From: Cyclobacteriaceae bacterium
Lineage (GTDB): Bacteria > Bacteroidota > Bacteroidia > Cytophagales > Cyclobacteriaceae
Direction: 5' to 3'
DNA: 59,254 bases
Assembly: GCA_019638285.1 (NCBI GenBank)
Contig: JAHBUB010000018.1
Location: 1 to 59,254 of the forward strand
Below, in pieces: positions 27,743-38,411 of the stretch. Each line of letters starts with the position of its first letter. Position 1 is the first letter of the stretch. The notes beneath the pieces are model-generated. The model saw nothing but the letters and a program-made list of their open reading frames with translations, was not told where the DNA came from and made no database searches. Made by a program: the position numbers and the translations under genes.

Positions 27743-28228
27743 AACATTTGTTGTTTAAATTGTTATACATACTTATTGAACGGGAAAACCTTATGTAAAG
27801 GTTTCATAAATAAGAAAAAACTTTAAAAATATTTTGATTTATTTTTCAAACCCAAAATCTCCTTTGGCAGCAACTCCTTCTCCCCTGGTTTGGACTGCCC
27901 TGTGGCTCCGCTAGCCTACCCCCTTGACCTGGTCCCGAGGCGCTCAGGTTCTTCTCTTCACAGATGCCCTGACTGATGATGGGGCTCCTCATCGGGAATG
28001 GCCCTCATCGCTACTTTAGCTGATGTGGGTGCCTTATCGGTTGGTGCGCACAGCTACTCGGGGTAACTGGCATAGCCATTCGGACTTCGCGTACAGCTAC
28101 TTGTTGTCCCCTGCATGGCCATTCGGAGCGCTGGGTACGCTCATTCGGACTGTGCGCACAGCTACTCCGGCTAGCTGGCATAGCCATTCGGTCTTCGCGT
28201 ACAGCTACTTGTTAGTTGTGGGTGCAGG
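27743..28228. other. Region between the unknown gene and the CRISPR array
   Basis: The first 130 bases are AT-rich and hold the promoter of the minus-strand gene and an inverted repeat AAACCTT-ATGTA-AAGGTTT (27786-27804). From about 27880 the composition changes abruptly to GC-rich sequence that continues to the first CRISPR repeat. It contains a duplicated segment of about 61 bp. Because the tracrRNA implies that the array is read on the plus strand, this stretch lies at the 5' side of the pre-crRNA. I see no conserved protein in it; the open frames across it look incidental. Confidence 0.45.
28045..28213. repeat. Imperfect direct duplication next to the array
   Basis: Copies at 28045-28105 and 28153-28213 (61 bp each, offset 108) share TGCGCACAGCTACTC, CTGGCATAGCCATTCGG and CTTCGCGTACAGCTACTTGT with only a few substitutions. 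Two partial copies of the CATTCGG word lie between them. The second copy ends 15 bp before the first CRISPR repeat. Confidence 0.85.
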
Positions 28229-31200
28229 GTTGTGATTTGCTTTCAACAAACGATCTTTGACAACATTGGACGTCACGCACATCAGCAGCAGATTGTTGTG
28301 ATTTGCTTTCAACAAACGATCTTTGACAACAAGTGTATGAGTAGTAAAATTTGCGAACACGTTGTGATTTGCTTTCAACAAACGATCTTTGACAACTCCA
28401 AGCGGGGTTCATAAACACTACTGAAAGTTGTGATTTGCTTTCAACAAACGATCTTTGACAACCTACTACTAAATAGTAAGGTTACATTTTTAGTTGTGAT
28501 TTGCTTTCAACAAACGATCTTTGACAACTGTTCTACCTGGCGGGAATCAGGCCGAGATAGTTGTGATTTGCTTTCAACAAACGATCTTTGACAACCTTCA
28601 TTGCTATAAAAGCATGTACTATATCGTTGTGATTTGCTTTCAACAAACGATCTTTGACAACGAACCGGTATAGTTGAAACAAGAAATGGAGGTTGTGATT
28701 TGCTTTCAACAAACGATCTTTGACAACTCTGCGTACTGGTGTGTACGTAACCTGCTGGTTGTGATTTGCTTTCAACAAACGATCTTTGACAACTAGTAGG
28801 ATAGCTCCAACAAATAGCAATATGTTGTGATTTGCTTTCAACAAACGATCTTTGACAACAATTTCATTTACTCTTAAAGTAGTCCTGACGTTGTGATTTG
28901 CTTTCAACAAACGATCTTTGACAACGAGTCCAGATACACAAGTGATTTCAATATTGTTGTGATTTGCTTTCAACAAACGATCTTTGACAACGTTTACTTC
29001 ATCCTTACCAAAAGAATGTTGTTGTGATTTGCTTTCAACAAACGATCTTTGACAACTGTCTTTGGATATGTAACTTTTAAATCCTTGTTGTGATTTGCTT
29101 TCAACAAACGATCTTTGACAACGCTTCATGGTAAACTCAGCCAGTGCTTCTAGTTGTGATTTGCTTTCAACAAACGATCTTTGACAACGTCATCCCATTG
29201 AAATAGTGGATGTAGGACAGTTGTGATTTGCTTTCAACAAACGATCTTTGACAACGTAACCGCTCATTTGAACATTGAATCCAAGGTTGTGATTTGCTTT
29301 CAACAAACGATCTTTGACAACCCAGCCGCAGAATTGACTTTCTCACAAGAGGTTGTGATTTGCTTTCAACAAACGATCTTTGACAACATACTATAAGGCC
29401 ACGCCAAAAAAAGATCCGTTGTGATTTGCTTTCAACAAACGATCTTTGACAACTGAATTAGCATTTCTTCGGTTATCAAAATTGTTGTGATTTGCTTTCA
29501 ACAAACGATCTTTGACAACGGTAATAAAGGCTACCATGGTCATTTAGTTGTTGTGATTTGCTTTCAACAAACGATCTTTGACAACTAAAGAACTCATGTA
29601 ATGGGTCAACCTCCCGTTGTGATTTGCTTTCAACAAACGATCTTTGACAACTAGAGTTGTCGCGCCTGCATCTGTGGTGGTGTTGTGATTTGCTTTCAAC
29701 AAACGATCTTTGACAACGACAAAAAACTTTAGGGCGTATTATGGATAGTTGTGATTTGCTTTCAACAAACGATCTTTGACAACCTAGTATCTTAGTTAAA
29801 TCTCCAAACCTATGTTGTGATTTGCTTTCAACAAACGATCTTTGACAACCTGATGAGATTAGGAAACTAAATAGTCCTCGTTGTGATTTGCTTTCAACAA
29901 ACGATCTTTGACAACTCAAGAAGATGTGCCTTTGCTGTCTCGCCGTTGTGATTTGCTTTCAACAAACGATCTTTGACAACACGCGCTTGGGTGCATAATT
30001 ACGTTCATCAGTTGTGATTTGCTTTCAACAAACGATCTTTGACAACCAAGCAATTTTAAAGCACCTCCAAAGAGGCAGTTGTGATTTGCTTTCAACAAAC
30101 GATCTTTGACAACACTTACAGGCATTTGACCAATATAAAACCAGTTGTGATTTGCTTTCAACAAACGATCTTTGACAACCGGTTGTGCCTCCAACTGTTA
30201 TAAGCTGAGTTGTGATTTGCTTTCAACAAACGATCTTTGACAACGTATTGACCTCCTTGTGATGAGATTCAATGGTTGTGATTTGCTTTCAACAAACGAT
30301 CTTTGACAACCAAGGTTTCTGAGGGTAGAATGTTTGAACTGTTGTGATTTGCTTTCAACAAACGATCTTTGACAACTTCCAAATCAATCAATAAAACTGC
30401 CAATGGGTTGTGATTTGCTTTCAACAAACGATCTTTGACAACAAACACATCAAGTAAATTTCTTTTACGTTGTTGTGATTTGCTTTCAACAAACGATCTT
30501 TGACAACCCTGAGCTTTCCGAGGTATAGATCACGTCTGTTGTGATTTGCTTTCAACAAACGATCTTTGACAACGTGGAGTTGAAAAGGGATTTATCTACA
30601 GAGGTTGTGATTTGCTTTCAACAAACGATCTTTGACAACCGTATATAGTCGCTCGGCATTTTCCGCTCCGTTGTGATTTGCTTTCAACAAACGATCTTTG
30701 ACAACGACAATTTCCTCGCGCACCGGCTATCGTTTGTTGTGATTTGCTTTCAACAAACGATCTTTGACAACCGTGAGCTGCTTGATCGACTCGAGCTCGT
30801 TCGTTGTGATTTGCTTTCAACAAACGATCTTTGACAACGGTTACTACCTGCAGCACCAGGCTGATGTTGTTGTGATTTGCTTTCAACAAACGATCTTTGA
30901 CAACGCTTGCAATACTTACCATCATCGCTGCCGTGTTGTGATTTGCTTTCAACAAACGATCTTTGACAACTAGGACAGCGATTGCAGGGTGGTGAAGATG
31001 TTGTGATTTGCTTTCAACAAACGATCTTTGACAACTTGATCTGGCTATGCGTGTGCAGCGCAAGCAGTTGTGATTTGCTTTCAACAAACGATCTTTGACA
31101 ACAAATACATTACCTGTTCATTAACATCCATGTTGTGATTTGCTTTCAACAAACGATCTTTGACAACGGTATCCGTCAAACAGAGGTTAATTGGTGCGTT

Positions 31201-32024
31201 GTGATTTGCTTTCAACAAACGATCTTTGACAACTGGATTATTTAAATATTCTCCTTCGTGCTTGTTGTGATTTGCTTTCAACAAACGATCTTTGACAACA
31301 AAAATACCCCTACGCATCCAAAGGCGAACGTTGTGATTTGCTTTCAACAAACGATCTTTGACAACAATCCACTATATTTGTACTATGAGGATATAGTTGT
31401 GATTTGCTTTCAACAAACGATCTTTGACAACAGCTCTCCCATCCATTCATTCTCTGATTTAGTTGTGATTTGCTTTCAACAAACGATCTTTGACAACGGA
31501 GAAAAATTTGCGAACACTAAACTTAATGTTGTGATTTGCTTTCAACAAACGATCTTTGACAACAAACACCGCAAACACCTGCAGCATTATGTGGTTGTGA
31601 TTTGCTTTCAACAAACGATCTTTGACAACTCTTAAAAAACATGGACAACACATTGGATAGTTGTGATTTGCTTTCAACAAACGATCTTTGACAACTCAGT
31701 ATCAGCAACATCATCAAATACAATAGTTGTGATTTGCTTTCAACAAACGATCTTTGACAACGGAATCAATGATAGGTTTATGTGAGAAGTAGTTGTGATT
31801 TGCTTTCAACAAACGATCTTTGACAACTGAAGCAGCGGACTTGTCTGCAGCTACAGCGTTGTGATTTGCTTTCAACAAACGATCTTTGACAACTGTCGGT
31901 CCCATGCCAAATTTGTACACCAGTTGTGATTTGCTTTCAACAAACGATCTTTGACAACAGTAAAACCCTCTACCCCTGTTACTTCTATGTTGTGATTTGC
32001 TTTCAACAAACGATCTTTGACAAC
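28229..32024 (+). CRISPR. Type II-C CRISPR array, 58 repeats and 57 spacers
   Basis: The 36-bp repeat begins GTTGTGATTTGCTTTC and ends GATCTTTGACAAC. I located 58 copies; the first starts at 28229 and the last at 31989. By eye they are all identical, including both terminal copies. Most of the 57 spacers are 30 bp; some are 29 or 31. Direction is taken from the tracrRNA at 38325, whose anti-repeat is complementary to repeat positions 2-16 as read on the plus strand. The array is therefore read toward and against the cas genes. Frames across it with recurring peptides are artefacts of the 66-bp period. Spacers 2 and 50 overlap in sequence. Confidence 0.98.
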
Positions 32025-32104
32025 AGATTATCTATAATTTACCTGATTATCAGTGTTTTACGAGTATAATCGTTGTCAAAAAATCTGCTAAAGTTGTCAA
32101 AGGG
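32025..32104. promoter_or_regulatory. AT-rich junction between array and cas2, with repeat-end copies
   Basis: The 80 bases after the last repeat are very AT-rich (ATTATCTATAATTTACCTGATTA). They contain two copies of the inverted repeat end, GTTGTCAAA at 32072-32080 and GTTGTCAAAG at 32093-32102. The second is the exact reverse complement of the last ten bases of the CRISPR repeat. This could be a leader-like adaptation site adjoining cas2, or stem-forming sequence at the 3' end of the pre-crRNA. Which array end receives new spacers cannot be decided from one genome. Confidence 0.5.
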
Positions 32105-32160
32105 AGCCTCCGAAACCTAGAAAAGCTCAAGCTGCTGGGGTATCGGAGGCTTTTCTTTTT
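32105..32160 (+). terminator. Hairpin terminator for plus-strand array transcript, overlapping cas2 3' end
   Basis: AGCCTCCGAAACC (32105-32117) pairs with GGTATCGGAGGCT (32139-32151), with 12 of 13 pairs formed. On the plus strand it is followed by TTTTCTTTTT, and on the minus strand only by a mixed sequence. It therefore best terminates transcription leaving the array toward cas2, and may also protect the cas mRNA 3' end. The CCTCCGA/TCGGAGG core is the same as in the REP-like palindrome inside the transposase gene. Confidence 0.65.
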
Positions 32161-32446
32161 CCACTTTTCCGTAAAAAATCTGCATCATGCCAAACTGTTT
32201 ATCGGTAACGGTGAGTATGCCCACGTGTCCCCTCGGTGGAAGGTTACGCTGCACCCGTTTTACATGCACATCGGCATTTTCGCGACTGGCGCAGTGGCGC
32301 AAATAAGCACTGAACTGAAACATGGTAAAACCGTCTTTCAGCATGCTTTTTCTGAAGTCGGTATAGTTCTTTCTATCCCTTTTGGTTTCTACTGGAAGGT
32401 CAAAGAACACCATTACCCACATAACGCGGTATTCATTAAGGCGCAT
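32117..32446 (-). CDS. cas2: CRISPR-associated endonuclease Cas2
   Basis: A 109-residue protein with the ferredoxin-like Cas2 fold. The conserved Asp16 sits at the end of strand 1 ([11 protein letters not shown]), followed by the helix [15 protein letters not shown] and strands TMFQFSAYL and [12 protein letters not shown]. Cas2 dimers bridge two Cas1 dimers in the integrase that inserts new spacers. It starts 2 bp after cas1 and is the last gene of the operon, with 92 bp between its stop and the last CRISPR repeat. Its 3' end forms half of the terminator hairpin. Confidence 0.96.
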
Positions 32447-32448
32447 GA

Positions 32449-33384
32449 TTAAGTTGGCAGTTCGGGATAAAGCACTTTCTTTTCTGTTCCATCAAAACAT
32501 TTGGCCAGCGATGCCGTGGTGCGCTGGGCTGCGACCATCAATGGACTGCGTTCGCCATTGATTCGAACATCCATAGTAGCAATGCCAAGAAGTTGTTTTT
32601 TAATGGAGGGATTGAGATCGTGATAATCTTCACCATTTTTAATTATTTCGCACACCACCGCATCAGCAAAAGGCCGATACGGTTCCATAATGTCATCAGC
32701 CAGACAATAATGATTGTATTGATTGCGGTGATGGATGCCCAGTGTGGGTAATAGCCCCGATCCTACCAGGCTGCGCGCAATGATCGCCCTTAAAATGGCA
32801 TACGTATAGTTCAGCAAATTATTGGGTGGTATGCCCTCACGCTCACGCTTGAAACCTTTGATTTGCGGAAAAATGTTCTTCCAATAATAAGCTGCTGCGC
32901 GGGCTTCCAAATTATCGGGATCGCCTGATTTCACATCTCCTACCCACTTGGTCATGTTGGTGGCTTCGTATCCAAAGCGTTGAAGTAGAAATGCCTGATT
33001 CGAAATTTTTGCTTTAATGGTTTGCTGCCATAGTTGCTTCACCAATGGCTGACTGGCATTGAGTTGTTCTTTAAACTTGGCCGATTGCAATTTGTTGCCT
33101 GACAAATTAAGCATCAGTCCGGTAGGGTGATGTGTTTTGTCGCAGGAAATCAGTGCTACGTTGTTTTCAATTAACCCATCGATTAAATACTGGGTGATGG
33201 TGAGGCGGGTGTGATCCAAGATCACCACCCCGATATCTTCGATAGGAATTATAGCGTGTACTCCTTTTTTAAAAGATTCCGGTAACGTTTCGTTTTTCTC
33301 TACCTCGGGCAAACGCAGAACAAGCTGATCGTCTTTGCGGCTCAGGTAGCCGGGGTTACCAAAGTAGAGTGTTCGTTTGATCAT
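32449..33384 (-). CDS. cas1: CRISPR-associated endonuclease Cas1 (type II)
   Basis: A 311-residue integrase subunit of type II size. The N-terminal beta domain starts [20 protein letters not shown]. The helical catalytic domain carries the metal ligands Glu160 ([14 protein letters not shown]), the His pair 218-219 ([10 protein letters not shown]) and Glu234 ([10 protein letters not shown]). All are present, so it should be active in spacer integration with Cas2. Its start codon overlaps the stop of the upstream transposase gene (ATGA), indicating translational coupling to that gene instead of directly to cas9. Confidence 0.97.
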
Positions 33385-33998
33385 GATGTTTCGCTGAAAT
33401 CAGGAATATTGTTTGCAGTCTGTTGGTGAAACTGAATAAACTGCTGCAGGTTGCCAAACCAGTTGATGACCTCCTGTTGTGCAGGCATAAGTTCAGGTAA
33501 GAGAAAACCGTGGTACGAACTCCATGGCCAATTGGTAATCTGTTTTACGAAACCATGTTTGACCGGATTGGCGTGGATGTAATGAATAACGCTTGTAAAG
33601 TAACTATCTCTAGTGATCTCTTTCCGTTTAAAGTTGGGGATGAAAAGGCTACCTCTGCGGACGTACATTTTATTAAAAGATTTGGTGTAACTGTTAAACA
33701 GGTTACTAAATTGTTTGGAGATTCTTTTTTCGATGGAGTTTAAACCTCCGAGGTCTTGTTGCCTCGGAATAAAGACCTCGGAGGTTTGCGGGAAGGATTT
33801 TATAATTTCTTCCTCAGTTTTAATTCGCACCAGCAAATGGATATGGTTTGGCATCAGGCAATAAGCCAGCGTATCGGCTACTGGCGGAATAAAATGATCG
33901 TACCGCCTGAGAAAATACCGGTAGTTCTCATCCGAACGGAACAGGTTCTCGAAGCCGTTGGCGTGGGTGTAGAGGTGGTATGTGAGTTTTGGAGCCAT
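33381..33998 (-). CDS. RAYT/IS200-like Y1 (HUH) transposase embedded in the cas operon
   Basis: A 205-residue single-domain Y1_Tnp protein of the REP-associated tyrosine transposase type. It has the HUH metal motif His52-Ile-His54 (CLMPNHIHLLV) and a candidate nucleophile Tyr104 (SNLFNSYTKSFNK). The RAYT hallmarks RRGSLF, YIHANPVKHGF and WSSYHG are also present. Such enzymes nick single-stranded DNA at hairpins. It starts 2 bp after the cas9 stop and ends in an ATGA overlap with cas1. An AGGAG (34009-34013 on the plus strand, read on minus) lies 10 nt before the ATG. No terminal inverted repeats or target duplication interrupt the cas genes, so it behaves as an operon member, not a recent insertion. 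A role in adaptation is possible but unproven. Confidence 0.93.
   Translation of the reverse strand: MAPKLTYHLYTHANGFENLFRSDENYRYFLRRYDHFIPPVADTLAYCLMPNHIHLLVRIKTEEEIIKSFPQTSEVFIPRQQDLGGLNSIEKRISKQFSNLFNSYTKSFNKMYVRRGSLFIPNFKRKEITRDSYFTSVIHYIHANPVKHGFVKQITNWPWSSYHGFLLPELMPAQQEVINWFGNLQQFIQFHQQTANNIPDFSETS
33742..33787. repeat. REP-like palindrome inside the transposase coding sequence
   Basis: AAACCTCCGAGGTCTT (33742-33757) and its perfect complement AAGACCTCGGAGGTTT (33772-33787) flank a 14-nt centre that itself contains CCTCGG. Each arm also folds on itself (ACCTC-GAGGT). It encodes about 16 residues between the HUH motif and the catalytic Tyr. This is the form expected for a substrate hairpin of a RAYT enzyme. 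Confidence 0.85.
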
Positions 33999-34000
33999 TC

Positions 34001-37000
34001 TTAATATTCTCCTACTTTCACTATTTGTCCAATATGATTGATACGGACTTTAACAACATCTTTAAGGTGCCCGGTACTTTGTATTAGTTTATAGGTAATA
34101 TTTACTAATACTTTCTTATCCTCAACAGAAGTCTCTAAATGGTGCCTGAACATGTAATTTCTAGTCGCAATCTTCTGTACGCGAAACAAATTCTGGCTTA
34201 TTAATTTATTATTTTTCATGTCTAATAAATCAACCTCTTTAGGGGCGAAACCTGTTTGCTCATTAGGAAATAGAAAATATTCATTTTGTTTCATTGAAAA
34301 TAGAAACTTCCAACCAAGCCCTCGATTGAATTCTTTATCTATTACTGGGAATCCGGCATTCACCAACTGAACAGCATCAAAAAATGAAACAACTCTTTCT
34401 TGTAAACTCTCTTTTTCATCTTTGTAAATGGCTACATGGTGATTGTTCCCCGTACTAACAAAATCCACAGAAATGGGCTTGCCACTTTCATCCAATATCT
34501 CTTTACCCAGGTGGTCTCTTTTATAATGCAGCGCCTCTGCATTACTTACTCCACTAATCGTTACCCGTTTTATAGAAATACCTTTGTCTCTATTGAGCCA
34601 GATTGGGTTTTTATCCAAATCGGAAAATGCTTTTTTAGGATCATTTTCGTATTCTTTTAAACGGGAAAGCAATATCCTTTTTATGCCTTCATCCAATACT
34701 TTTTCAATGTTCTTTGCTTCTTTGAAGTTTTCTGGTGTTACATCCTTACGAATAGAATAGCCCTCTTCCAGCCATGTCAATCCTACTTTATCAGGCACGG
34801 TGTCAGTTTTTGAATCATCTAAATAAATTGGATTTTTAGATAGCGTATTCTTTCCTGTAAAGGCCTTTTTTGGATCATTTCCATTTTCAGACAAACGTTT
34901 AACTAATAATTCTTTATAGATCGGATTGGATACCTTATTAATTGTTTCCAAATCAAATTTTGACCCTATCTTTTCTTCACTATGCACGTAATATTGGTAT
35001 TTGCCGTAAATAGTTTCTTTATGAAGCTGACCCCTCGGGGTAAGCGTATCTTGAGGCTTTTCCTTTCCGGCAATTTTGTTTCTGTTTTTAGTTACCACTT
35101 TGTTTTTGGCTTTATGAGAAACTAAAATATTTTCAAGATGCTCCTTGGCTACAATTCTGAAATTTGGGATGGGAAGTTTGAATACCCGTTTACTATTTCC
35201 GTTGTAATCTTTAACTACAAGCGTTTCCTTATCCTCTATTCCTTTGATGTTCCGGTGTTCCTGATCTGCTTCATTGTAGCGCGCATTCAGGTGATTTAAA
35301 TATTGGATGTGGTTGTGTTTAGTAAAAGCAACTGTAAGGGCGTCCATTGCATGGTGTCGATGATCATTTCGTTTGCTCCAGTCCACAATGCGTTCTTTAA
35401 ATGTGCCGTCTTTCTTCTCCACTTTTTCGGTAAGTCCTTGTTTTTTAAATTTATCGAAATTGAGTTCCTGCATAATATTGATCAAATCCCAATCCTCACG
35501 AAGTCTATCTGTGACGCTCCCTGATGTAGAAACGACAGAACGTGTAATGTCATAAAGCATAGTTTTTGCTTTCTTAGCGATGTATTGGCTATCGCGTAGG
35601 TCACGTTCTATGAACCCTTCACCGATGTCGGTTGCTCTTTTTTGAAGCTTTTGATATTTTGCCTTGGATATACCATCTTCCTTGTTCCTTTTGCCAATCT
35701 CAAAAAGTTTCTCAATTCTCTTAATGAATATCTCTACATTTTCCTTTCCAAAATCGCTTTCGATGTAGTCAAAAGCCGTGCGGTTGCCCTTCTTTAAATT
35801 ATCTTTTCGAAAGGATAGTGTTTTGTTTGAAAAACTATCATCGAATACGCGCGCTTGTGGAATGATGTGATCAATGTCAATCTGCTTACTAAATAAAACC
35901 TCTCGTGGAATGTATTCATCTGTGTACAGATCTTTATAACCATTATTTCTAAGTTCTTCGTATAACTTATATCGTATGATGTCATTACGACTTGGGTTTT
36001 TTACACCAAATTCATTTCTCAAAAGTTTAATAATCTTATCGTGGTTAGCCTTTGCTGCATTAATATTGCTAGTCATCTCGGCTCGTTCTTTGGCATTTTT
36101 CTTTAATTCACGAGCCAACTCAATTCTAATTTCATCAAATTTGAAGTATTCAATAATGTCTCCGTTTTTATCTTTTTTACTATTGACTTCAATTAATGTG
36201 TTGACTACATTAATCATTTGATTTAAAATTTTCTCAACAACCGGATTTCGTAGACTGTTTTTTTTCAACAACTCAAGTTTATTTTTCAATGGACGGGTAG
36301 CAATCTCCTCTTTGGTCCATGAAGCAGCCGAATGCCTGTACCCCGCCTGTTCACATGCTTCGCTGAATTTACTTTCATGAATATAGGGGTATATCTTTCG
36401 CATGGCTTTAGTACTCAAATTGCCATAATCATCAGACAAGGTAATGTTTGCCAGAATCTGGCTATGCTCTTTTTTAAAGCCGAATTTCTCCCTCAACAAT
36501 TCATACAATTTTACATTTCCGCTTGGTGAATCATCACTTTCATACGAATACAACAAGTGCCAAAGTCGGTACGAGGCCTGCTGTTCAAATGCTTTCCCAT
36601 CTAACTCCGCATTGAAATCAAGAATTTCAGTTTTAATGTTTAGCACTTCAAAAATGGATTTTATCATGTGCTTGATTTCCAGAACCGGAACAGTCAAATC
36701 ATCTAACTCCACTTCATCTTTATTGGATTTTACTTTCAGTAAATCTTTTACATCATAACCCTCCAAATCAAGGATTTTAAGATATGCCTCATTAAAGACT
36801 CTATTGGTTCTGTTCCCCTCTAACTCGGTGTAGTTAAGCTCCCATTTATTCGGCTTGTAGCCCAACAATTCAATAATTTTATCCTGCTTTAAATAGCCCT
36901 TGAAATTCAATTCTTCAAACAATTGTTGCTTTGCTTGCAAATCAAATTCAAATATTTCCGTGTCATTATCACTTTGCTTTTCACCGTTTGATGCTATTCG

Positions 37001-38296
37001 TTTTCTGCTTCCCTTTTTTTTGATAAACACGTTATTAAGGACTTGCCAGATTTTAAACTCCTGAAATAATGGACATGATTTTGGCGCTACCCTTAACCCG
37101 ATAGTCTTCTTAACATTGCTACCGTTTCTTTCGACCACAATTTCCTTGCGTTCAAATTCACAGATGCTAATCAATCTTTTTTGTGATTTCAGTTTTCTTT
37201 GATAGAATATTATTATATCCCTGATCTCTGTTTTTAAATCATTGGTTAGTTCTGTGTAATGGTTGGATTGCTCCTTCCAAATCGCTTCAAATTCATCTAA
37301 ATAATCCTGACGGTAGAATACCTGATTCCTTAATCGGATATGGGGATTTCCATGCAATTGTCTATACAAAAATTGTCCCACGGTTTCCCTATTAAAATAC
37401 AATTCTTTGCTGCGGTCGCTTATTGCACCGAGATAGCCACTTGAATTATTTAGATTGTTGTTGATTTCGGTAATCACGTAGGCTGCCACTTCTTTTTCTA
37501 ACTTCTCTGAAATAGCGTTGCTTCTCCATTCATAAGCTCTTAATTTTTTTTCTTCTCTTGTTCCTTTATTTTCTGCTGTGTTGAATTTGTACTTTCCCCA
37601 AAACCATGCTGAAGTAGCACGCTGTCCCTTGCCTTGCAATTCTTTATAAAATTCGTGGGTAAAAATTTCGGGGTGAAACTGCTGTTGACAATCCCACACC
37701 TTATCAAATTCTACCTGTAAATCGGAACGATAGAAATCAGGTATATACTTTTTCCCTTCTTTTAATAACTCGTAAGATAATTGTCCCGGGGTTAAGCCCT
37801 CCTCATACAACCGTTTTGCGATGGCCATCCCATCAATAGCTGTTCCCTCTTCTTCATTTTTGGCCTTACGACTGCTTTTGTAGCCACGCTTTTTATTGAT
37901 TGCCAAAAATATTCTCGCCAATTCTTCCTTCTCTATTTTTTTTGTAACCGCTTTTGCGCGCAAGCGCCATGTCTCATGGGTGGTGTTTTTACCGTCTTCA
38001 GCAAGCTTGGTGTTGTTAGTAATCAACCCCTGCTGCCTTAACACTTCTATAAGGTTATTTCTGCGCAACTGATAGCGGTCGAGATTTTTTCTCATACCTC
38101 GTTTTAGTGTTCTATCGGCATTTACTGAAATTGCCTTCCCCTTTTCGAAGTTAGTTTGTTCATCTGTGCTCAAAGGAATGACTCTAACCCCAATTCTTTC
38201 TATTGAAGACCGTTCAGGTACTTCATTTTCAATAACATGGGCAAACCCAATAGAAGTTGTTCCTAGGTCTAGACCGAGTATATTTTTTTTACTCAT
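34001..38296 (-). CDS. cas9: CRISPR-associated endonuclease Cas9, type II-C
   Basis: This is a 1431-residue effector. RuvC-I lies at the N-terminus with Asp10 (ILGLDLGTTSIG). It is followed by an Arg-rich bridge helix near residues 60-80 (RTLKRGMRKNLDRYQLRRN) and a long REC lobe. RuvC-II contains Glu726 (IRIELARELKK), the HNH domain has His810 (IDIDHIIPQARVFDDSFSNK), and RuvC-III has His982/Asp985 (NDHRHHAMDALTVAF). A C-terminal WED/PAM-interacting region of about 400 residues completes it. All catalytic residues are intact. The length is large but within the range for Bacteroidota II-C enzymes. It is the first gene of the operon, is followed 2 bp later by the transposase, and diverges from the tracrRNA. 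Confidence 0.98.
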   Translation of the reverse strand: MSKKNILGLDLGTTSIGFAHVIENEVPERSSIERIGVRVIPLSTDEQTNFEKGKAISVNADRTLKRGMRKNLDRYQLRRNNLIEVLRQQGLITNNTKLAEDGKNTTHETWRLRAKAVTKKIEKEELARIFLAINKKRGYKSSRKAKNEEEGTAIDGMAIAKRLYEEGLTPGQLSYELLKEGKKYIPDFYRSDLQVEFDKVWDCQQQFHPEIFTHEFYKELQGKGQRATSAWFWGKYKFNTAENKGTREEKKLRAYEWRSNAISEKLEKEVAAYVITEINNNLNNSSGYLGAISDRSKELYFNRETVGQFLYRQLHGNPHIRLRNQVFYRQDYLDEFEAIWKEQSNHYTELTNDLKTEIRDIIIFYQRKLKSQKRLISICEFERKEIVVERNGSNVKKTIGLRVAPKSCPLFQEFKIWQVLNNVFIKKKGSRKRIASNGEKQSDNDTEIFEFDLQAKQQLFEELNFKGYLKQDKIIELLGYKPNKWELNYTELEGNRTNRVFNEAYLKILDLEGYDVKDLLKVKSNKDEVELDDLTVPVLEIKHMIKSIFEVLNIKTEILDFNAELDGKAFEQQASYRLWHLLYSYESDDSPSGNVKLYELLREKFGFKKEHSQILANITLSDDYGNLSTKAMRKIYPYIHESKFSEACEQAGYRHSAASWTKEEIATRPLKNKLELLKKNSLRNPVVEKILNQMINVVNTLIEVNSKKDKNGDIIEYFKFDEIRIELARELKKNAKERAEMTSNINAAKANHDKIIKLLRNEFGVKNPSRNDIIRYKLYEELRNNGYKDLYTDEYIPREVLFSKQIDIDHIIPQARVFDDSFSNKTLSFRKDNLKKGNRTAFDYIESDFGKENVEIFIKRIEKLFEIGKRNKEDGISKAKYQKLQKRATDIGEGFIERDLRDSQYIAKKAKTMLYDITRSVVSTSGSVTDRLREDWDLINIMQELNFDKFKKQGLTEKVEKKDGTFKERIVDWSKRNDHRHHAMDALTVAFTKHNHIQYLNHLNARYNEADQEHRNIKGIEDKETLVVKDYNGNSKRVFKLPIPNFRIVAKEHLENILVSHKAKNKVVTKNRNKIAGKEKPQDTLTPRGQLHKETIYGKYQYYVHSEEKIGSKFDLETINKVSNPIYKELLVKRLSENGNDPKKAFTGKNTLSKNPIYLDDSKTDTVPDKVGLTWLEEGYSIRKDVTPENFKEAKNIEKVLDEGIKRILLSRLKEYENDPKKAFSDLDKNPIWLNRDKGISIKRVTISGVSNAEALHYKRDHLGKEILDESGKPISVDFVSTGNNHHVAIYKDEKESLQERVVSFFDAVQLVNAGFPVIDKEFNRGLGWKFLFSMKQNEYFLFPNEQTGFAPKEVDLLDMKNNKLISQNLFRVQKIATRNYMFRHHLETSVEDKKVLVNITYKLIQSTGHLKDVVKVRINHIGQIVKVGEY

Positions 38297-38324: not shown

Positions 38325-38411
38325 AGTCACTGAAAGCAAATCACAATAAGGATTATTCCGTTGTGAAAACATCTGGATTGCCTCTTGTCCATAAACCAGG
38401 AGGCTTTTTTT
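38325..38411 (+). ncRNA. tracrRNA
   Basis: GAAAGCAAATCACAA (38332-38346) is the perfect 15-nt complement of repeat positions 2-16. It is followed by the Bacteroidota-style nexus AATAAGGATTATTCCGTTGTG and then by a terminator stem (GCCTCTTG at 38380-38387, CAGGAGGC at 38397-38404) with seven T. The 5' end is approximate; a -7-like TTATTTTG lies at 38311-38318. It is transcribed away from cas9, pairs with the crRNA repeat and is needed for Cas9 loading and RNase III processing. Confidence 0.9.

Follow-up and report, generated by a model that had tools for sequence, protein, structure and literature searches.

A RAYT-like HUH nuclease gene recurs between cas9 and cas1 in type II-C CRISPR-Cas operons of the Cyclobacteriaceae

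The window, a stretch of 59,254 nucleotides from a member of the Cyclobacteriaceae (contig JAHBUB010000018.1), carries a type II-C CRISPR-Cas operon in which a gene for a HUH nuclease resembling REP-associated tyrosine transposases (RAYTs) lies between cas9 and cas1. The same arrangement, with the RAYT on the cas strand, was found in 43 of 70 type II loci of the family, in 41 genomes and 17 genera. This is far beyond chance, taking two RAYTs per 4500 genes as the expectation, and the association of the RAYT with the cas operon is nearly certain. As to its role, comparison of the loci leads us to favor, at a probability of roughly 0.45, a RAYT that serves in this family as an accessory single-stranded DNA hairpin nuclease of the CRISPR adaptation module, which is cas1-cas2 in type II and cas4-cas1-cas2 in type I-B.

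On the minus strand of the window, cas9 (34001..38296, 1431 amino acids, stop codon TAA) is followed by the RAYT gene (33381..33998, 205 amino acids), cas1 (32449..33384), cas2 (32117..32446) and the CRISPR array (28229..32026), in which the repeat core CGATCTTTGACAAC occurs 58 times. The three Cas proteins score above their NCBIfam cut-offs (432.7 bits for the type II Cas9, 294.9 bits for the type II Cas1 of TIGR03639 and 62.8 bits for Cas2), Cas9 matches RuvC and HNH models, and an anti-repeat upstream of cas9 (38331..38362, inverted repeats I1-I3) is a tracrRNA candidate. Cas9, type II Cas1, Cas2, array and anti-repeat, the features of type II-C, are all present; between cas9 and the array there is neither csn2 nor cas4, and the gaps between genes from cas9 to cas2 are at most 2 nt. 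The coordinates, reading frames and close junctions given in a preliminary description of this DNA were confirmed in the sequence. The TAA of cas9 is separated from the RAYT ATG by the two nucleotides GA, the RAYT stop and the cas1 start share the ATGA at 33381-33384, and cas1 and cas2 are 2 nt apart. A Shine-Dalgarno-like AGGAG (34009..34013, minus strand) also lies where it had been placed, within the 3' end of cas9 and 10 nt before the RAYT ATG. A 69-nt direct repeat with 108-nt spacing was noticed just past the array end, at 28037-28213.

The assignment of the protein to the RAYTs draws on profiles, active site and fold. Its profile scores are below the cut-offs, at 65.3 bits for NF047646 (REP_Tyr_transpos, cut-off 80) and 19.8 bits for Pfam Y1_Tnp (cut-off 23). 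A model predicted with AlphaFold2 from 8 sequences (mean pLDDT 81) had as its top Foldseek match the E. coli TnpA_REP structure 4er8, solved with its hairpin (E 1.8e-9), followed by IS200/IS605 transposases, and 4er8 was likewise the sole PDB sequence match at E<=0.01 (E 5e-8). The HUH motif, His52-Ile-His54, is encoded at 33837..33845 and the catalytic Tyr104 at 33687..33689, both on the minus strand. The initial view of a single-copy enzyme with an intact active site held well, since only one match was found in the window's genome at E<=1e-3 and, across cas-linked RAYTs, H52 is conserved in 47 of 48 and H54 and Y104 in 48 of 48. A low dN/dS, named there as a sign of recruitment, was also found, at 0.04-0.25 in the 11 of 12 RAYT pairs that were computable; for cas1, nine pairs gave a value, eight of them 0.01-0.09 and the ninth, where cas1 is truncated, 0.135. 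Synonymous sites are saturated in several pairs. The cas-linked RAYTs are thus under purifying selection, and they have evolved faster than cas1 in most pairs compared. Broken copies or decayed loci do exist among them (L152, L211). One genome (G263) has three copies of the operon (L198, L209, L211), with the cas9 of each in several frames through decay or sequencing error, and one locus (L100) has the order cas9-RAYT-cas1-RAYT-cas2, its two RAYTs having diverged from each other.

Type II cas1 was present in 68 of the 295 genomes of the family, from which the 70 loci were fetched. All 43 RAYTs in the slot are on the cas strand in a listing that covered either strand, and the sole other RAYT in the 70 stretches lies downstream of cas2 on the opposite strand (L200). 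In 7 of the 43 loci the end of the RAYT gene runs into the start of cas1, and in 38 it is no more than 100 nt away; the spacing ranges from -8 to +186 nt when three loci with a mis-called cas1 start are excluded. Within the genus of the window, the slot holds a RAYT in six of the six genomes with type II cas1 (16 sampled), that of G289 being split into two frames. The preliminary description had named absence from all close relatives, or a decaying active site, as what would speak against a gene built into the operon; the presence of the gene in all six of these genomes, with the site conserved in cas-linked RAYTs, bears the proposal out, and a single neutral insertion is ruled out by the 43 occurrences on one strand. 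Conservation of the position, named there as a sign of recruitment, holds only in part, as the RAYT, common as it is in the family, is absent from 27 of the 70 loci and has often been gained, lost or replaced. These absences include a close relative of an occupied locus (L192 versus L196), so the RAYT is dispensable and not required by the operon.

Beyond the family the arrangement is rare: in a phylum-wide sample, TIGR03639 was found in 59 of 395 genomes, and only one of the 57 further loci fetched (L230) has a RAYT in the slot. In searches anchored on the RAYT instead, a type II cas1 adjoins the RAYT in 18 of the best 30 loci of the family, the window included, and in 12 of the best 80 loci from genome_contigs, two sets that overlap in part; the latter cases include Paludibacter, Salegentibacter, Salinivirgaceae and Bacteroidales records. 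RAYTs beside type II cas1 in these searches are always on the cas1 strand, against a baseline of 27 of 51 with the next gene on the same strand among RAYTs lacking a type II cas1 neighbor. Type II cas genes were the only neighbor families to recur beside several RAYT clades in more than three loci, in a tally where 40 of the 47 cas rows had been picked via cas1.

The history of the gene was followed on quick or FastTree trees, some with long branches, on which label changes cannot separate gain from loss and a change is called forced where well-supported branches impose it. On the RAYT tree (123 rows), 15 changes are needed to place the cas-linked label, 7 of them forced; shuffled labels need 38 on average, and one clade of 17 rows is wholly cas-linked. 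This tree leaves out L152, L209 and L211, which are broken or duplicate, and labels L014, L030 and L056 as "other" though they are linked to type I-B genes. RAYT presence needs 18 changes on the Cas1 tree (131 rows; 11 forced, shuffled mean 40) and 25 on the Cas9 tree (112 rows; 21 forced, shuffled mean 36). As the cas-linked RAYTs are not one clade, the slot has probably been filled more than once, and a single ancestral recruitment inherited ever since is disfavored by the at least 7 forced changes on the RAYT tree and the 11 on the Cas1 tree. Across 45 loci, Mantel tests gave a rho of 0.56 for RAYT and Cas1 and 0.10 for RAYT and Cas9 (partial value given Cas1, 0.01). Hence the trees, whose congruence had been named as a sign of recruitment, are not all congruent: the RAYT follows Cas1, whereas Cas9 has been exchanged, and the idea of the RAYT as a traveling partner of Cas9, in the manner of IscB and TnpA, is ruled out.

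Two loci whose Cas1 proteins are 94% identical (L187 and L179) hold RAYTs of different lineages, only 37% identical, in the same slot. In six pairs with a RAYT in one locus only, detectable homology begins at most 3 nt from the cas1 ATG. Overall, the RAYT has been kept for long periods and, it seems, has also been acquired anew or replaced several times in this one slot. In two loci, short stretches resembling the 5' end of the RAYT gene are found between cas9 and a full RAYT (L189:5014-5107 and L194:5230-5288, oriented); it is possible that they are scars of earlier exchange.

As judged by comparing related loci, Cas9 is often replaced while RAYT-cas1-cas2 stays. The clearest pair, L191 and L186, shares Cas1 at 99%, RAYT at 93% and upstream flanking DNA at 98% identity, while the Cas9 proteins are 25% identical, with one breakpoint at the RAYT start and the left breakpoint about 108 nt from the nearest hairpin. 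Another pair, L196 and L192, is 96% identical from the cas1 ATG on and 91% identical upstream of cas9; the two cas9 genes belong to different clades, and L192 has no RAYT. In such swapped pairs Cas9 is 18-31% identical while Cas1 is 73-99% identical, and several breakpoints fall at gene starts. Among disjoint pairs whose Cas1 proteins are 70% identical or more, Cas9 was less than 45% identical in 12 of 15 pairs with a RAYT and in 4 of 15 without (p 0.009); within the family the corresponding figures were 12 of 15 and 2 of 4 (p 0.27). RAYT-free loci, too, swap Cas9 at the cas1 start (L169/L168, L166/L169), and the RAYT as sole driver of the swaps is not supported within the family. Replacement of cas9 through recombination has been described in Flavobacterium psychrophilum, according to an excerpt of PMC10309648.

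The boundary between cas9 and cas1 also receives other genes. The RAYT accounts for 43 of the 46 type II-C slots of the family with a recognized guest, non-RAYT guests having been sought in gaps of more than 350 nt. HIRAN, AAA, DUF6261 and PRiA4_ORF3 proteins use the same slot, sometimes beside a RAYT. HIRAN-domain proteins occur in this gap in two families; those of L159 and L244 were recognized by Pfam and that of L161 by its resemblance to L159. One type II locus without a RAYT carries a different Y1 transposase in the gap (L222:5403-5879; Pfam Y1_Tnp, 98.9 bits). In 4 of the 9 loci of family f7 (L272, L273, L274, L281), which are perhaps Flavobacterium-like, a divergent Y1 gene lies in convergent orientation between cas2 and the array; cas9 in these loci is beyond the array, and inspection by eye suggests a fifth case (L216).

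A link with adaptation genes was also found in type I-B systems. In Fulvivirga imtechensis (L041, the same locus as L323) the order is cas8-cas7-cas5-cas3-RAYT-cas4-cas1-cas2, where cas8 is assigned by position only, having no NCBIfam match, and cas7 scores below the cut-off. Of 40 type I-B loci from 39 of the 295 family genomes, three have a RAYT on the cas strand immediately before cas4 or cas1: this one, L288 (cas4-RAYT-cas1-cas2) and L334 (RAYT-cas4-cas1). A fourth case beyond the 40, L030 on another contig of G285, has the same order as L334, and two more of the 40 loci have a RAYT about 2 kb downstream of cas2. Guest open reading frames were also noticed in the gaps around cas4 and cas1 of L325, L326, L347, L314 and other type I-B loci, and by eye these resemble toxin-antitoxin (PIN-like), PRiA4-like or four-helix proteins.

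Hairpins occur both within the RAYT gene and around the operon. In the window, a REP-like inverted repeat (33742..33787; 16-nt arms AAACCTCCGAGGTCTT, 14-nt loop) that the preliminary description does not mention lies in the open reading frame between the HUH motif and Tyr104; it encodes residues 71-86, and residues 71-84 have a pLDDT below 50 in the predicted model. Inverted repeats of this kind (arms of at least 11 nt, some of them in frame but ahead of the probable start codon) are present in 42 of 47 cas-linked and 38 of 75 other RAYTs; their position is mostly constant across RAYT lineages while the hairpin sequence varies by lineage. The 15-nt arm core has no further copy in the window's genome at up to one mismatch, so no dispersed REP population is evident there. 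REP insertions within the tnpA_REP gene are known for RAYT subclass 2.4, according to excerpts of Quentin et al. (2018; PMC6006769), and the in-frame hairpin itself is therefore already known. One RAYT-like open reading frame (L110) has five hairpin units in its reading frame.

Outside the RAYT gene, perfect hairpins whose arms measure 13 nt or more were found in 22 of 43 family loci with a RAYT and 1 of 26 without (p 4e-5; L170, a stretch without cas9, was left out). In the 43 loci they lie between RAYT and cas1 (16), between cas2 and the array (13), between cas9 and RAYT (9) and upstream of cas9 (3), and in two of the four loci inspected (L270, L271) the array has hairpins on both sides. Hairpins of this size are not peculiar to REPs, since some were found in 6 of 45 RAYT-free loci outside the family as well; a strict double-palindrome filter, which is too narrow, retained 9 of 44 loci with a RAYT and 1 of 83 without. 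Two common hairpin patterns have 0-14 copies per genome, within and outside CRISPR loci, and none in the window's genome. The flanks of 16 hairpins from relatives showed by eye no common sequence and no GTAG tetranucleotide; atypical structures are reported for some RAYT subclasses in the same excerpts (PMC6006769). These patterns suggest that the RAYTs act on DNA near their own gene, as expected of RAYT/REP pairs. In the window itself, neither the cas9 edge nor the cas1 edge has a hairpin whose arms reach 13 nt. The preliminary description is corrected in one further point, as possible substrate hairpins are present in the gene and in related operons.

If the RAYT is an accessory of adaptation, it would be expressed together with cas1 and would bind and nick single-stranded hairpin DNA via Tyr104, yielding a 5'-phosphotyrosine and a 3'-OH. 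Such nicking could help to make or load prespacers, or to resolve integration at the repeat, and the RAYT would be the missing helper of type II-C, a subtype that lacks both Csn2 and Cas4, with the hairpins in the gene and operon as its cognate REP-like substrates. TnpA_REP enzymes cut and rejoin single-stranded DNA beside hairpins, as stated in an excerpt of PMC8266576. In favor of an accessory role, the slot and strand are fixed in type II loci, the catalytic residues are conserved, and the gene is under purifying selection, has diverged with Cas1 rather than with Cas9, has stayed in place when Cas9 was replaced, and lies beside the adaptation genes of two CRISPR types. Such a role is opposed by the 27 absences, the at least 11 (Cas1 tree) and 21 (Cas9 tree) changes in presence, evolution faster than that of cas1, the broken copies, the other guests in the slot, the hairpins outside CRISPR loci, the low frequency in type I-B (3 of 40, and L030) and the rarity outside the family. 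The main rival is a hitch-hiker, a semi-selfish RAYT/REP-like pair without any part in immunity, lodged at a tolerated module boundary of a defense operon that is often selected and transferred. We consider this a real possibility, if a tentative one: the hairpins outside the gene track RAYT presence in the family and have copies elsewhere in many genomes, the RAYT has been gained, lost and replaced repeatedly, the same boundary hosts other guests in both II-C and I-B loci, and purifying selection also suits a resident with its own replication. A mere lodger would not, however, readily account for 43 of 43 in-slot RAYTs on the cas strand, the strong preference for the place directly upstream of cas1 or cas4, the overlaps with the cas1 start, the dominance over other guests or the lack of a second copy of the hairpin arm in the window's genome. 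The accessory role is favored because a merely tolerated boundary would not call for anything as specific as this slot, this strand, the tie to cas1 and the recurrence in two CRISPR types.

Alternatively, the cas9/cas1 junction could be a preferred target of RAYT-type transposition, with the strand set by a single-stranded target. Different RAYT lineages in the same slot of close relatives (L187 and L179) and homology resuming within 3 nt of the cas1 ATG would be expected of such a hotspot, but the RAYT-to-cas1 spacing varies, the hairpin flanks have no common sequence by eye and the differing junctions of type I-B loci accept RAYTs as well, and we think this explanation improbable. Equally, we see little likelihood that the RAYT, together with hairpins at the edges of modules, promotes the exchange of cas9 genes upstream of a resident RAYT-cas1-cas2, in the way that integron hairpins serve gene cassettes. 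This analogy would fit the excess of diverged Cas9 in pairs with a RAYT, the pair L191/L186, which shares all but Cas9, and the hairpins found at each module edge and past some arrays; yet the excess is not significant within the family, Cas9 is swapped at the cas1 start in RAYT-free loci as well, and the left breakpoint of the best pair lies away from the nearest hairpin. Were it true, one bacterial family would reshuffle its CRISPR effectors, keeping its adaptation genes and trading its Cas9 for a distant one.

To our knowledge, type II-C adaptation proceeds without the Csn2 and Cas4 of its sister subtypes, and how prespacers are made there is still open. A HUH single-stranded DNA nuclease tied to cas1-cas2 in more than half of the family loci, and found also next to cas4-cas1 in type I-B loci, offers a concrete candidate for an adaptation factor; if the RAYT is only a lodger, it still shows clearly how a domesticated transposase has settled time and again in a defense operon. 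On either reading, a link between Y1 enzymes and CRISPR is now open to direct test, and anyone who classifies Cas9 by its operon has to reckon with how often Cas9 is swapped while cas1-cas2 stays stable. Among the literature matches listed (open-licence PMC text, preprints aside), none named a RAYT or Y1 gene as part of a type II-C or type I-B operon.

In its Cas proteins, gene order, array and anti-repeat, the locus in the window resembles known type II-C systems, from whose cas9-cas1-cas2 operon it differs by an extra gene between the effector and the adaptation genes, a position that recalls csn2 (II-A) and cas4 (II-B), the accessories of other type II operons. An RNA-guided nuclease beside a Y1 HUH enzyme also recalls IS200/IS605 transposons, in which IscB or TnpB is encoded next to TnpA; here, however, the HUH gene co-diverges with cas1 rather than with cas9, it is single copy, and unlike such a transposon it has no terminal hairpins with arms of at least 13 nt at the cas9 and cas1 edges. 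The closest relatives are the RAYT/TnpA_REP enzymes (Quentin et al., 2018; PMC6006769), with which it shares the HUH-Tyr core, the 4er8 fold, low copy number and nearby palindromes; going by excerpts of that study, the nearest subclass may be 2.4 or 2.6, the latter being mostly from Bacteroidetes and having atypical structures at its flanks. Unlike known members, the RAYT of the window lies in a cas operon and scores below the NCBIfam cut-off, and the word "CRISPR" occurs 0 times in the main text of that paper. Finally, a transposase-type gene beside CRISPR genes is also a feature of the CRISPR-associated Mu transposases (CasMu), which, according to an excerpt of PMC10910872, combine a DDE transposase with effectors without nuclease activity, whereas the cas9 of the window matches RuvC and HNH models and its companion enzyme is a HUH nuclease.
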